From Nitrospira sp. (lineage in GTDB: Bacteria; Nitrospirota; Nitrospiria; Nitrospirales; Nitrospiraceae): DNA of 64,000 bases. The notes under the pieces are model-generated. The model searched no databases, had not been told where the DNA came from, and saw nothing but the letters and a program-made list of their open reading frames with translations. The stretch is from the NCBI GenBank assembly GCA_029194535.1, contig JARFXR010000001.1, positions 124,001-188,000 on the forward strand. The letters run 5' to 3'. Of the stretch, positions 3,378-53,265 are shown piece after piece (positions within the stretch are counted from its first letter, which is position 1; every line of letters begins with the position of its first letter). Both the position numbers and the translations under genes were made by a program.

Positions 3378-4463
3378 ATGGCTGACTACGCCTATACCAA
3401 CGCCAGGATCCGTGCCATGGAGGGCCGTCTTCTCAGCCGGAGGCAGTATGAGTCTTTGTTAGGCCAGGAGCGCCTCGATACCTTGGTGCAGGCGCTGAAG
3501 AGTTCGTCGTATGCGCGCACGGTGGAGCAAACTCTCACGGCACTCAATCTTGCTCAGCTTTCCCAGACGATCATTCGCATCGATGAAGCTCTGCGGCGGG
3601 ACCTTATGCAGAATCTCAGCGCGCTTCGGCGCTTCTTCTCCGATCGCTCGCGAGAGCTGATCAACGCGCTCTTCCTTCGATGGGATGTCTACAATGTGAA
3701 AACGGTGTTGCGCGGGAAGCGGGTTGCCGCGCCGGTCGAAGAAATCCTGGCGACGACGCTTCCGGTCGGGATCCTGGACGACATGGCTGTGGCCGAACTT
3801 GCACGAGCGCCGACCATGCAAGCCGCGGCTCATCTGCTGGAGACGTGGCGACTTCCACTCGCCCGTCCGGTCAGAACCGGACTGAACCTGCTCGGAGAGG
3901 CCGACGCGCTGCAGCCGCTTGAGTCTGAGCTGGATCGGTTCGCTGTTATGAGCACAGCCCGACTGGCCGGTGACGGCGATGACAAAGCCCGAATCGTGGG
4001 GGACTATCTCCGGTTTCTCGCGGATAAGGTCAATATTCTGACCGCGCTCCGCTACCTGGCCGAACGCAGTGCTCTTTCTCCGGTAGAGGCCCGCCGCCAT
4101 TTCGTCAAGGGAGGGGGACGGTTCACTCGATCCGACTACGAGGCGGTTGTGGACGCTCGAGATCTGCACGATGGACTCGCCCGGCTCACGGCAACCCCCT
4201 ACGGGTGGCTTGCCGACGTATTTCCGGAAAGCGACACCATTGCTCTTCCGCTTGTGGAGAGACACTTGGACAGCGCGGGCATGCGCAAAGCCGTAGGCCT
4301 CGCTCGGCCGGATCCATTGGGGATCGGTCAGGCGATCTCGTATATCGAGCAGAAGACGAACGAGGTCCGTAATCTCCGGATGATCCTCCGAGGGAAGGCA
4401 TTGGGAATGCAAAAGGAACAAATCGCGGAATGGCTGATCCTATGGCCCGTCTGGTCGTCGTGA
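3378..4463 (+). CDS. atpC: V/A-type ATPase subunit C (d-like rotor adaptor)
   Basis: 361 residues, member of the AC39/C family, the funnel-shaped subunit linking the central rotor (D-F) to the proteolipid ring. The N-terminus D-Y-A-Y-T-N-A-R-I-R-A-M-E-G-R-L-L is the family's typical opening, and Y-I-E-Q-K-T-N-E-V-R-N-L-R near the C-terminus is the conserved closing helix. The protein is mostly helical with three repeats of a similar bundle. The stop at 4463 lies inside the next gene, an overlap of about 20-30 bases, which points to translational coupling with subunit F. Confidence 0.9.
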   Translation: MADYAYTNARIRAMEGRLLSRRQYESLLGQERLDTLVQALKSSSYARTVEQTLTALNLAQLSQTIIRIDEALRRDLMQNLSALRRFFSDRSRELINALFLRWDVYNVKTVLRGKRVAAPVEEILATTLPVGILDDMAVAELARAPTMQAAAHLLETWRLPLARPVRTGLNLLGEADALQPLESELDRFAVMSTARLAGDGDDKARIVGDYLRFLADKVNILTALRYLAERSALSPVEARRHFVKGGGRFTRSDYEAVVDARDLHDGLARLTATPYGWLADVFPESDTIALPLVERHLDSAGMRKAVGLARPDPLGIGQAISYIEQKTNEVRNLRMILRGKALGMQKEQIAEWLILWPVWSS

Positions 4464-32337: not shown

Positions 32338-32409
32338 TAAACAAATAGCGGAGAAAACTAGCGAGAGCAGTTGAGGACCACCGACCCCGCCAGCAAGAGA
32401 GAAACCGGC

Positions 32410-35229
32410 ATGGCCGAGTCGGACCGGACAACCCCGCCGCCCGAACGCTGGCACGCCAGGCCGGTTGAAGAACTGGCCGCGGAGCTTCGAGCGGATCTTG
32501 ACGCCGGCCTTGCCGAGGATGAGGTACAGCGAAGACGGGAGCAGTCCGGATGGAACGAACTGCCTGAGGCGCCGCCGGTTTCCTGGCTGAACCTGCTCCG
32601 TTCCCAATTCACCAGCATCATCATCTGGGTGTTGATCGGCGCGGCCGCCGTGTCCGGCTTCCTGGAGGACTGGCTGGATGCCGCCGCCATCCTGGCCATC
32701 ATCGCGCTGAACGGCCTCCTGGGCTTCGTGCAGGAGTTCCGGGCGGAACGGTCGCTGGCGGCGCTGCGCAAATTGTCCGTCGCCGCGACACGCGTGAGGA
32801 GGAACGGCGCGCTGCACTCCATCCCGGCGCGTGATCTGGTTCCCGGCGACGTGATCCTACTCGAAGCGGGCGACCGCATTCCCGCCGATACCCGACTGAT
32901 CTATACCGCCAATTTCCAATCACAGGAAGCCTCCTTGACCGGCGAATCCACTCCGGTTCAAAAGAATGCCGCCTGGCTCTGCCGATCCGACGTCCCGATC
33001 GCCGACCGGACCAATATGGCGTTCATGGGAACCGCCGCCGTGTCCGGGAAGGCACGAGCTCTAGTGGTGGCCACCGGGGTGCGGACCGAACTGGGCCGCA
33101 TCTCTTCGATGATCCAGGCGGCGGAGACAGCTGAGCGGGCCGAAACACCGCTCCAGCGCCGGCTGGAGCAATTCGGCTATACGCTCATCTGGCTGGCGCT
33201 CGGGGTGGTGGCCGTCGTCTTCGTCCTGGGCTTCCTGCGGGGCGAACCGATAGTCGAGATGTTTCTGACCTCCGTAAGTCTTGCCGTGGCCGCGGTGCCG
33301 GAAGGACTGCCGACCGTCGTGACGATCACGCTGGCCCTGGGAGTCACCCGCATGGTGAAGCGGCATGCGTTGATTCGGAAGCTGCCGGCCGTCGAGACGC
33401 TGGGCTCCTCCACCGTGATCTGCACCGACAAGACCGGGACGCTGACCAAGAACGAAATGACCGTCACGCGCCTCTTCATGGACGGACGTCTGTTCGAGGT
33501 GACGGGGGAAGGGTACGAGCCGGTCGGAGACATACGAGAAGCAAGTGCTGAGTGCTGGGTGCTGGGTGCTGAGTTTTCCCGAGAGGAGACTTCTCTGGGG
33601 TCCGGCAACTCAGGACTCAGCACTCGCAACTCAGCACTGCCTGCCGGCCTCCGGCACCTCCTGAAAGCCGGTCTGCTCTGCAACGGAGCCATCCTGACGA
33701 AGGAGAACGGAACCTGGAAGATTGTCGGCGACCCGACCGAAGGCGCATTGCTCGTCGCGGCGGCCAAGGCGGGATGGCAGAAAGACGATCTCGAGCGCGA
33801 GGCGCCGTTTGAAACCGAAATCCCCTTCGATACCGAGCGCAAGATGATGAGCATCATCCGGCGCGCAGCTTCACGGCGGACTCTGTTCGCCAAAGGCGCG
33901 CCGGACGTCCTGTTGACCCGCTGTACTGCGCGCATGACGCTGGAAGGCTCCATCGAACCGTTGGACGAGCAGGGCCGTCGGGCGGTTTTGGATGCCAACG
34001 CGAGGCTCGCCCACGAAGCCTTGCGCATCCTCGCCACGGCCTACAAATCCCTCGACGACCGCGACGCCGACCGGCCGGACGGGATCGAGCGGGATCTCAT
34101 CTTTCTCGGCCTGTTTGCCATGAAAGACCCGTTGCGGCCGGAAGCGCAGGAGGCGGTCCGAGCCTGCCGGGAGGCGGGCATCAGAACGGTGATGATTACC
34201 GGAGACCACAAGGAGACCGCGTCGGCGATCGCGAAAGACTTGGGCCTTGGGGACGCGCCGGATCGGGCCCTCTCCGGCGCCGAGTTGGATGCGCTGAGCG
34301 ACGAGAAGCTGTCAGGGCTGGTAGATCGGCTGTCGGTTTATGCCCGGGTGTCCGCGGAGCACAAATTGCGCATCGTCAAAGCATGGAAGAGCCGAGGGGC
34401 GGTCGTCGCCATGACGGGCGATGGCGTGAACGACGCGCCGGCCATCAAGGCCGCCGACATCGGCGTCGCGATGGGCATCGCCGGCACCGATGTCACCAAA
34501 GAGGCCGCCGACATGGTGATCACCGACGATAACTTCGCCTCCATTGCCGCCGCCGTGGAGGAGGGCCGCGGCGTGTTCGACAACATCCGGAAGACGGTCC
34601 ATTTCCTTCTGTCGTGCAACATGAGCGAGGTCCTGGTGATGTTGTTCGCGACGCTGCTCGGCCTCCCGCTGCCGCTGTTGCCGATTCAAATTCTCTGGAT
34701 GAACCTCGTCACGGACGGCTTCCCGGCCCTCGCGCTGGCGGTGGATCCGAAGGCGCCGGATCTCATGCGCCGCCCGCCGCGCAGACCGGCGGCCCGTTTG
34801 CTGGACAGCGAGCGGCTGGCCGCCGTCGCCGGGGAGGGATTCCTTCTGGCTATCATAGCCTTGGGCGCCTTCGCCTACAGCCTCTACGTCTGGCGGCAAC
34901 CGGTCGAACAGGCGAGAACCGTGGCCTTCACCGTCATGGTGGGCGCCCAGTTGGTCCATGCCTTCAATTGCCGAAGCGACCGGTGGTCTGTGTTCCAGGT
35001 GGGCTTGTTCACCAACCGTCCGCTCATCTGGGCCTTGCTGGTCTCCCTTGCGGTGCACGTCGCCATCATCACCATCCCGGCCGCGCAGCCCATCTTCAAA
35101 GTTTCGCCCTTGCCCACGGAGGACTGGGAGCTCATGGCCGCCATGGTGCTCTTGCCGCTGGTGGTCGTGGAAGGACTCAAGGCGATCAAGCGACGCCTTC
35201 ACGTAACGACTCATTTTATGACCAATTGA
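32410..35229 (+). CDS. P-type Ca2+-class (P2A) cation ATPase with an in-frame palindromic insertion
   Basis: 939 residues. D-K-T-G-T-L-T with phosphorylated D340; P-E-G-L-P at 297-301 in TM4 supplies the ion-site glutamate of P2A pumps; T-G-E-S in the actuator domain; [14 protein letters not shown] in TM6. N-terminal cation-ATPase domain and ten membrane helices are all there, so it is a full-length Ca2+/Mn2+-class exporter. Residues about 376-411, early in the nucleotide domain, are encoded by an inverted repeat (33544-33638) and are not part of the family; the frame is kept. Start ATG 32410 has only a weak ribosome site. It follows the metal efflux operon. Confidence 0.92.
33544..33638. repeat. 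REP-like inverted repeat inserted in frame in the P-type ATPase gene
   Basis: Left arm 33544-33574 (repeats of gtgctgagt/gtgctgggt) and right arm about 33607-33638 (aactcag/cactcgc/aactcagcact) are imperfect reverse complements, around an inner short hairpin (agaggagacttctct). The arms are built from an iterated ~8-base word. The insertion adds roughly 36 codons with no stop. Confidence 0.75.
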
Positions 35230-51867: not shown

Positions 51868-52287
51868 ATGGTGAACGTATGGGGTTGGATGACGGTCGCC
51901 GCATTGTCGGGTCTCTGCTGGCTGGCCACGGTCGTACCGGTGGAATCCCAGGCTGTCCAGAGCGTGGAGGTGACGATCCGCGATTTTACGTTTCTGATCA
52001 CCAAGGAGGTGCCGCTTCGTCTTGGTCTCCCGACCGTCATCCATGTCCGCAACGATGACGCCGAGCGGCACGACTTCGGGTCCACCATGTTCGAAGGACT
52101 GCCCACGAGGATCGAGAAAGACGGCGTCATCGTCTATGGGCGGGGGCTTGAAGGGGTGATGCTCGATCCGAAGCGGGAGGCGACCATCCGCTTCAACATG
52201 GAGCGACCCGGACGCTATACGTTTCGCTGTTCGATTCATCCGAATATGAACGGCGAGTTGCTGCTCTTGAGCGCAGAGGCGGTGTAG
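51868..52287 (+). CDS. Exported cupredoxin (type 1 copper) protein
   Basis: 139 residues. Signal peptide 1-28 ending V-E-S-Q-A. The single beta-sandwich has the four type-1 copper ligands in order: H68 in A-E-R-H-D-F, C121, H124 and M127 in C-S-I-H-P-N-M. This C-x2-H-x2-M spacing is that of compact plastocyanin-like domains. It would carry electrons or store copper in the periplasm. GGGAGG is six bases before ATG 51868. Next gene downstream is a tandem stress protein, separated by about 42 bases holding a short ctgagt-type repeat. Confidence 0.85.
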   Translation: MVNVWGWMTVAALSGLCWLATVVPVESQAVQSVEVTIRDFTFLITKEVPLRLGLPTVIHVRNDDAERHDFGSTMFEGLPTRIEKDGVIVYGRGLEGVMLDPKREATIRFNMERPGRYTFRCSIHPNMNGELLLLSAEAV

Positions 52288-52288
52288 C

Positions 52289-52329
52289 TGCAGAGTTCTG
52301 AGTCATGAGTCCCGAGGGCTGAGTTACGA
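52289..52329. repeat. Short ctgagt-type intergenic repeat
   Basis: The 40 bases between the cupredoxin and the stress-protein gene contain gttctgagt, catgagt and ggctgagtt words, the same vocabulary as the palindrome inside the P-type ATPase gene. Confidence 0.4.
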
Positions 52330-53265
52330 ATGAGGATCGAGCGTATCCTGCTGGCAACGGATTTTTCTTCCTGGGCGCGTCGGGCGGAGGACTATGCCTG
52401 CTCTCTCGCCTCTCTCTGGAACGCTCGTCTGACCATTATGAGCGTCTTGGAATTGGTGCCGGGCATGAACCCCGACTACCCCGTCAATCATCAATATCTG
52501 ACGGAGCGCATGCGAGAAACGTCGGAGCAGCTTGCCGAATGCAAACGACGCATCGAGTTTCGGGAGATCTTCGTTTCCGCCAGAATCGGAACCGGACTCC
52601 CGAGCGAAGAGGTGGTCGCCGCGGCTCTGGCGGAAGACTCCGACCTCGTCGTCCTGGGAACGAGGGGAAGGAGCGGATTGGCCCATGTGTTGCTTGGGAG
52701 CACGGCGGAGCGTGTGATCCGTACGGCGCCCTGTCCCGTTCTCGCCGTGCATCTGACAGCCACTGAGAGTTCGACTCCCAGGCCCGAGATCACGCTGGAA
52801 CGGATTCTGGTCCCAATCGATTTTTTCGACGGTTCGCTGGACGCGCTGGAGTACGCCGCTTTGCTTGCCCGACAGACTAAGGCCTCCATCAAGGTTCTCC
52901 ATGTTCTAGAACCGGTAGCCTACGGATTGGACTTCACGCTCGGGCATGCAGAAGAACGGGAGCGGACACGGGAGCGGTTGATGAAACGCCTCGATGCCCT
53001 GTCCACGGCGCTCACGGCCGCCGGCATCCCGGCAACCAGTCTGATTCGGGGAGGAATCCCTGGCGACACCATACTGGACGAAGCTCGGACCTGGCCGGGC
53101 GATCTCCTCGTAATGGGGACTCACGGACGGCGAGGAATCTCCCATGTGTTGAGCGGAAGCATCGCTGAAGCGGTGCTTCGTCGCGCAGAATGTCCGGTGC
53201 TGACCGTTCGGAATCCGAAATTCCATCCGAGCCATCAGCGAGTGACCCTGAAGTCTGCCTTGTAG
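52330..53265 (+). CDS. Tandem-domain universal stress protein
   Basis: 311 residues, two Usp domains (about 1-145 and 152-300). Both have complete ATP-binding motifs: G-T-R-G-R-S-G-L-A-H-V-L-L-G-S-T and G-T-H-G-R-R-G-I-S-H-V-L-S-G-S-I. The domain starts R-I-L-L-A-T-D-F-S and R-I-L-V-P-I-D-F-F carry the acidic residue that contacts adenine. It follows the cupredoxin gene and could share its sigma-54-like promoter. Confidence 0.93.
   Translation: MRIERILLATDFSSWARRAEDYACSLASLWNARLTIMSVLELVPGMNPDYPVNHQYLTERMRETSEQLAECKRRIEFREIFVSARIGTGLPSEEVVAAALAEDSDLVVLGTRGRSGLAHVLLGSTAERVIRTAPCPVLAVHLTATESSTPRPEITLERILVPIDFFDGSLDALEYAALLARQTKASIKVLHVLEPVAYGLDFTLGHAEERERTRERLMKRLDALSTALTAAGIPATSLIRGGIPGDTILDEARTWPGDLLVMGTHGRRGISHVLSGSIAEAVLRRAECPVLTVRNPKFHPSHQRVTLKSAL

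Follow-up and report, generated by a model that had tools for sequence, protein, structure and literature searches.

The cation-pump gene of a Nitrospira genome was found to carry, within its open reading frame, a hairpin-forming palindrome whose two arms are built of a repeated 7-nt word. Taken together, the data described below make it probable that this palindrome belongs to a class of hairpins dispersed in Nitrospira, with arms of 7-nt words and loops unique to each site, that it is seated in the one length-variable, tolerant loop of the ATPase, and that the class has been shaped by insertion or replacement, by selection and, less surely, by slippage with copying. The stretch of DNA that was analyzed (the window, 64,000 nt) corresponds to positions 124001-188000 of contig 1 of a 3.98-Mb genome, G000.

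The palindrome is an imperfect inverted repeat at 33544-33638, assigned to neither strand, which encodes residues 379-410. The left arm (33544-33575, reverse strand) consists of four steps of the heptad word AGTGCTG, the reverse complement of ACTCAGC, and the right arm (33607-33638, forward strand) consists of ACTCAGC-type heptads and terminates in CTCAGCACT. Inverted-repeat analysis showed that the arms were 32 nt apiece, 81% complementary and 31 nt apart, the spacing being the loop at 33576-33606 (no strand assigned). No other period-7 stretch as strong as the left arm was present in the 64-kb window, and none was present in shuffled sequences. Period 7 was also the sole lag detected for tandem units in the window, and the element thus has the 7-nt unit of the heptanucleotide repeats known as STRRs. 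The ACTCAGC word had 8 matches in the window in comparison with a chance expectation of 0.12, and the RNA fold of 33544-33638 had an energy of -64.7 kcal/mol (z = -7.6). Rfam gave no match anywhere in the window. The reading frame was open across the palindrome, from the ATG at 32410 to 35229, without a stop, which bears out the preliminary description of an imperfect inverted repeat of about 95 bases in an ATPase coding frame. The figure of about 36 added residues given there was too high: the palindrome covers some 32 codons and adds a net of about 24 residues (93 aa from DKTGTLT to GD, against the usual 69).

The host gene (32410-35229, forward strand) encodes a type-IIA P-type ATPase, a PMR1/SERCA-like cation pump of 939 aa if translation starts at the ATG, the TTG at 32371 being a possible alternative. 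Its Pfam matches were E1-E2_ATPase, Cation_ATPase_N, and Cation_ATPase_C, and its best NCBIfam match was the PMR1-type Ca-ATPase, with a score below the family cut-off. The nearest solved structures were SPCA1 and a Listeria Ca-ATPase, and the alignment with SPCA1 was interrupted where residues 375-414 of the query face 14 residues of SPCA1. The AlphaFold model of the ATPase, built from 19 sequences, had a mean pLDDT of 79. Its segment with pLDDT below 50, residues 380-408 (33547-33633, forward strand), coincided with the heptad element and was flanked by a strand (375-377) and a helix (412-423). The phosphorylation motif DKTGTLT (33427-33447, forward strand) forms the upstream anchor of this loop. 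Across many phyla, the distance from DKTGTLT to GD was 69 residues or near that in most ATPases, while it was 57-106 residues in the Nitrospira family and 72-106 aa in most Nitrospira orthologues. The DKTGTLT-GD loop was the only internal segment of the ATPase whose variation in length exceeded 8 residues (0-42 aa). Judging from the model, the extra residues are apparently tolerated as a disordered loop that follows the strand and leads into the first helix of the nucleotide-binding domain.

Alignment of homologues, a check proposed in the preliminary description, showed that the segment is absent from the ATPases of other phyla. Its absence from close relatives was seen only in part: the heptad insert was missing from the ATPases of L009, L018, L022, and L025, but several Nitrospira orthologues share the element and most have some palindrome. 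Period 7 was detected at p < 0.05 in 19 of 27 ATPase loops of the Nitrospira family, or in 18 when the choice of lag was allowed for. The heptad was GCACTCA in the loops of the window, L073, and L078, and GAACTCA in those of L072, L074, and L076. Further loops contained AGTTCGG (L006), GAAACGT (L075), GAGGCGT (L079), GGTCAAT with CACCCRT (L013, L015), GGTCAAT (L005), CAGCCAT (L012), and others. Because different words occupy the very same spot in related species, one protein loop repeatedly hosts such repeats. In the loops of L014, L017, and L077 a 6-nt step of the AGGTTG/AAGGCT type replaced the heptad, and since these steps stand where heptads would, the step length itself varies among lineages. 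A palindrome or run with a 6-nt step was also observed in G063, on contig C22 near 22.4 kb. The ATPase loop of L011 (genome G022) was a nested mosaic, in which GGTCAAT and CCTCACG heptad pieces lay around a palindrome of a different kind (TCGAGGGGGCCTGTCC); this mosaic suggests repeated landing at one spot.

Six of the ATPase orthologues aligned in a single register, most of them having two arms of 32 nt. Arm cells were paired in 82% of cases in register, in comparison with 21-39% when the partner was slid. In four pairs both partners had changed, and the score for covariation was higher than that of 497 of 500 shuffles; this score, like the correlations given below, serves as a guide only, because the orthologue rows are few and related (six sequences for covariation). 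The 31-nt loop of the window element was homologous to the loops of L074 (18/32, p = 0.0002) and L072 (16/32, p = 0.0018), and not to the other loops of G000. The L078 loop shared homology with the L072 and L074 loops (19/32 each), while its likeness to the window loop was marginal (p 0.06). The homology of the window, L072, and L074 loops, and of the L078 loop with the latter two, indicates that the element predates the split of those Nitrospira lineages. At the level of sequence, these comparisons show that the element resided in the ATPase loop before several Nitrospira lineages diverged, that word changes occurred in place with both arms altered, and that elements were later lost or replaced at identical codons. 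With the same element in register in several Nitrospira orthologues, and some palindrome in most of the family, the element does not represent a recent stray insertion. The earlier proposal that the element can enter a gene in phase and be tolerated on a protein loop is therefore supported as to the loop, which is disordered in the AlphaFold model, but not as to a recent stray event.

Replacement at the same codons was examined in L073 and L074, which are sisters (SH-aLRT 100). Their words were different and their loops unrelated (10/32, p 0.27), and the genome of L073 contained no second copy or donor of the L073 loop. As far as the sequences record it, the whole element seems to have been replaced at the ATPase site of L073. 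At a nearby intergenic site in the same two genomes, a heptad palindrome in one and a 6-nt-step palindrome in the other occupied the same spot. Genomes G017 and G021 were rich in heptads, yet their ATPases were without the insert.

Runs of AGTGCTG or GAAACGT place TGA successively in every frame. In the window, a TGG codon (33556-33558, forward strand) stands at the single heptad where the canonical word would give an in-frame TGA. The equivalent heptad was TCGAGAG in L073, TTAAAAG in L074 and L076, and CCAAAAG in L078, and the critical codon was TTA in L075, L079, and L016. Across 19 heptad loops the two other frames contained 64 stop triplets, the absence of stops from the coding frame itself being forced by the gene being open. 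These data show that heptad words persist in genes only with stop-avoiding changes or in harmless phases.

Copies in the genome were also counted, as had been proposed. The ACTCAGC word (at most 2 mismatches) gave 93 matches at 47 places in G000, mostly between genes, and 46 of these places were examined with their flanks. The copies had similar arms, many of them starting with AGTGCTGAG and finishing with CTCAGCACT, and one-armed copies exist. The loops were unrelated among copies, with nothing in common beyond leftover heptads. Elements lay within any open frame of at least 100 codons in 14 of 46 cases, whereas 512 of 600 placements drawn at random in that DNA did so, and most of the 14 sat in antisense or spurious frames. 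The secure in-gene copies were the one in the ATPase gene and two in an Lhr helicase gene. In-frame elements were also observed in two further long frames of G000 that are candidate genes, L066 (549-3032, possibly a HerA/DUF87-type ATPase) and L042 (1228-2403, possibly a membrane protein), gene calls being based on open frames together with a simple codon score. A second element with the same word lies in the window at 52294-52325 (reverse strand); it is one-armed and degenerate, and it fills the spacer between two genes (stop near 52285, next ATG at 52330).

The 200 kb that G000 shares with its congener G001 (82% DNA identity) contained 5 elements in G000 and 0 in G001. Four of the five corresponding sites in G001 were element-free, and one had a different palindrome. 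These comparisons show that heptad elements are mostly kept out of genes and are gained and lost among congeners. Genomes G062 and G063 offered few comparable sites, because their blastn alignment covered only 29 kb. On contigs 7 and 17 of G062, heptad elements were crowded into regions tens of kb long (on contig 7, for instance, roughly between 7 and 42 kb), as though certain chromosomal regions accumulated them.

The frequencies of two of the words were determined in the genomes that carry them in the ATPase. Matches to GAACTCA and GCACTCA (at most 1 mismatch) numbered 4 and 40 in G000, 77 and 34 in G063 (L074), 54 and 11 in G065 (L076), 9 and 32 in G067 (L078), 113 and 115 in G062 (L073), and 3 and 5 in G061 (L072). 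The ATPase word was the commoner word of the genome in all four informative genomes (G000, G063, G065, and G067). The presence of a heptad insert in the ATPase followed the heptad load of the genome, being likelier where two sample words had more matches (Mann-Whitney p = 0.03; Fisher p 0.009, with the threshold set afterwards).

The Lhr helicase gave a second series. In its orthologues L152-L171, five variable linkers, located after residues 223, 596, 948, 1044, and 1301 in the aligned frame of L152, were filled by heptad runs of several words, most at p < 0.01. The Lhr-type gene of G000, L059, contained in-frame elements at 1487-1550 and 3634-3671 (contig 2, near 344.6 and 346.8 kb). At these two sites, and in three more linkers, the orthologues had different heptad words.

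We looked for machinery that could move or maintain these elements. The preliminary description had called the element REP-like, which does not hold in the strict sense, as there was no GTAG/CGTC tag and no link to a RAYT. Among the 46 flanks, GTAG occurred 4 times and CGTC 3 times, never more than once at one offset. Y1_Tnp, the RAYT domain, had 4 matches in G000 and no match in the heptad-rich genomes G014, G021, G026, G028, G033, and G036, some of these assemblies being incomplete. Assignment to the REP/RAYT system was rejected on the tag and the RAYT, although the elements are dispersed, mainly extragenic palindromes. Target site duplications of 2-6 nt were not above chance among 23 two-armed copies, in a test that leaves variable-length or degenerate duplications outside. 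The elements were not regarded as MITEs, since neither target duplication nor likeness over the whole length was found (the loops differ). Copying of whole elements was rejected because the loops differ among copies and the L073 loop had no donor, and templating of the heptads by a reverse transcriptase was rejected because neither G000 nor several heptad-rich genomes had an RVT_1 match. The arms within one G000 element were no more alike than arms across elements (p = 0.73), so hairpin-templated correction inside a single element was unseen in G000.

SbcD is part of the SbcCD nuclease, which cuts DNA hairpins in E. coli. A match to SbcD above the family cut-off was found in 0 of 61 Nitrospirales genomes, which gave three weak partial matches, and in 13 of 14 known genomes used as a control. 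The order Nitrospirales seems, from these matches, to lack the standard hairpin nuclease, and with no recognisable SbcD the Nitrospira lineage may bear palindromes well. Loss of SbcD was rejected as the cause of heptad abundance, because heptad-rich and heptad-poor genomes are both without it; at best it would be permissive.

The elements were then compared with known systems. The copies of a family of the rickettsial palindromes called RPEs are alike over their whole length, whereas the heptad elements share arms only, without a full-element consensus, have unique loops, and show many coexisting words with a 7-nt step. As cited in PMC5896051, RPEs are short dispersed palindromes found in frame in unrelated Rickettsia protein genes (Ogata et al., 2000, 2002). 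The two kinds are similar in that both are short and dispersed, lie in frame in unrelated genes as well as between genes, and are seemingly tolerated; in G000 this was seen in the in-frame copies of the ATPase gene and of Lhr (two places), most copies being intergenic. For intragenic GTAG/CGTC REPs, flexible linkers have been proposed as safe locations, and the recB genes of two Xanthomonas species are reported to contain different REPs at nearly the same position (PMC3733652). The heptad elements resemble these as palindromes inside genes with a proposed linker location, but they have 32-nt heptad arms and no GTAG/CGTC tag or RAYT link, and in Nitrospira the same-site turnover involves many species and no fewer than two genes. 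The STRR heptanucleotide repeats of cyanobacteria and Beggiatoaceae (TAACTGA repeats), for which one inverted case was reported (PMC4679880), are likewise built of 7-nt words in tandem, whose units come in related variants, and they lie mostly between genes, with a few copies within ORFs. However, STRRs are direct repeats, while the Nitrospira elements have two inverted arms that form a hairpin (one-armed copies aside), and the Nitrospira words vary between species at one site. A hairpin formed by the pairing of degenerate heptanucleotide repeats is known from a Nostoc intron (PMC3488679), and distinct repeat classes and copy-number changes occur at a fixed place as in Nitrospira; that case differs in being a single locus and a non-coding stem of intron RNA, the comparison there not extending to a genome-wide pool. 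The QMITE1 and QMITE2 elements of Coxiella burnetii are miniature inverted-repeat elements that also overlap ORFs, sometimes in frame (PMC5896051), but their families are 150-400 bp long and have short terminal direct repeats and no heptad arms. A search of the open-licence literature found no paper on such repeats in Nitrospira. What is new is the combination, heptad-word hairpins that recur at fixed linkers with word turnover, as in-gene palindromes and heptanucleotide repeats are each already known. With the components known separately and no Nitrospira paper found, we regard the class as a variant of known phenomena.

In the explanation that we consider probable, insertion or replacement of hairpins would be frequent genome-wide, and selection would purge most in-gene hits. 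The survivors would gather in a few permissive linkers, where they would be retained only if in phase and without an in-frame TGA. Heptad runs may, less surely, grow and switch word by 7-nt slippage together with copying from other copies, and this copying might be templated repair or conversion aided by the missing recognisable SbcD. The genome comparisons caught no transposition or conversion event. A stronger version of the copying step is doubtful, namely that the dominant heptad of a lineage is copied in a concerted manner into standing hairpins, those in genes included, by a dedicated or repair process without a transposase or reverse transcriptase; if this were true, the protein loop would track the current word of the genome. 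Purely local growth, with 7-nt polymerase slippage making the run, fold-back (template-switch) synthesis making the inverted arm, and no copying between sites, would account for the site-unique loops, the heptad step common to unrelated words, and the one-armed copies. Among long simple repeats, heptanucleotides are reported to be the commonest category in most genomes, polymerase slippage being the proposed cause (summarised in PMC4679880). However, local growth does not predict an identical word at tens of places per genome, and the arms of one element were no more similar than those of different elements, and we consider it rather unlikely.

Slightly less likely still is mobilisation of the element, as a REP or MITE, by a RAYT (an IS200-like Y1 transposase) or by another IS acting on the palindrome ends. 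The elements are dispersed, palindromic, and mostly intergenic, their ends are often AGTGCTGAG and CTCAGCACT, their presence differs between congeners, and G000 does have Y1_Tnp matches; but it is the arms and not the loops that are common to copies, neither a target duplication nor a tag at a fixed place was found, six heptad-rich genomes gave no Y1_Tnp match, and many unrelated period-7 words behave alike. It is very unlikely that selection maintains the segment for a function in the ATPase or in its mRNA, as a regulatory loop or a translational hairpin. Arms that remain complementary in several orthologues and a position fixed across the family would fit such a role, whereas the word, the peptide, the length, and even the presence of the segment differ among close relatives, the L073 loop appears to have been replaced outright, the segment is disordered in the model, and the ATPases of other phyla do without it. 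The named relatives are metagenome-assembled genomes, which could raise the question of an assembly or annotation artefact, but the host contig is 2.5 Mb long with the gene in frame, and independent assemblies repeat the feature with other words and intact frames, so that we give this reading almost no weight.

In-gene palindromes have so far mostly been read as single selfish insertions. The ATPase loop and the five Lhr linkers provide a natural series on how a repeat spreads, how its word changes, and how new residues are fed into proteins. The Nitrospira repeat peptides SALSTQHSAL, WSMVNGQW, and RSSEFGVRSSE are, on this account, products of one kind of DNA repeat and not protein motifs.
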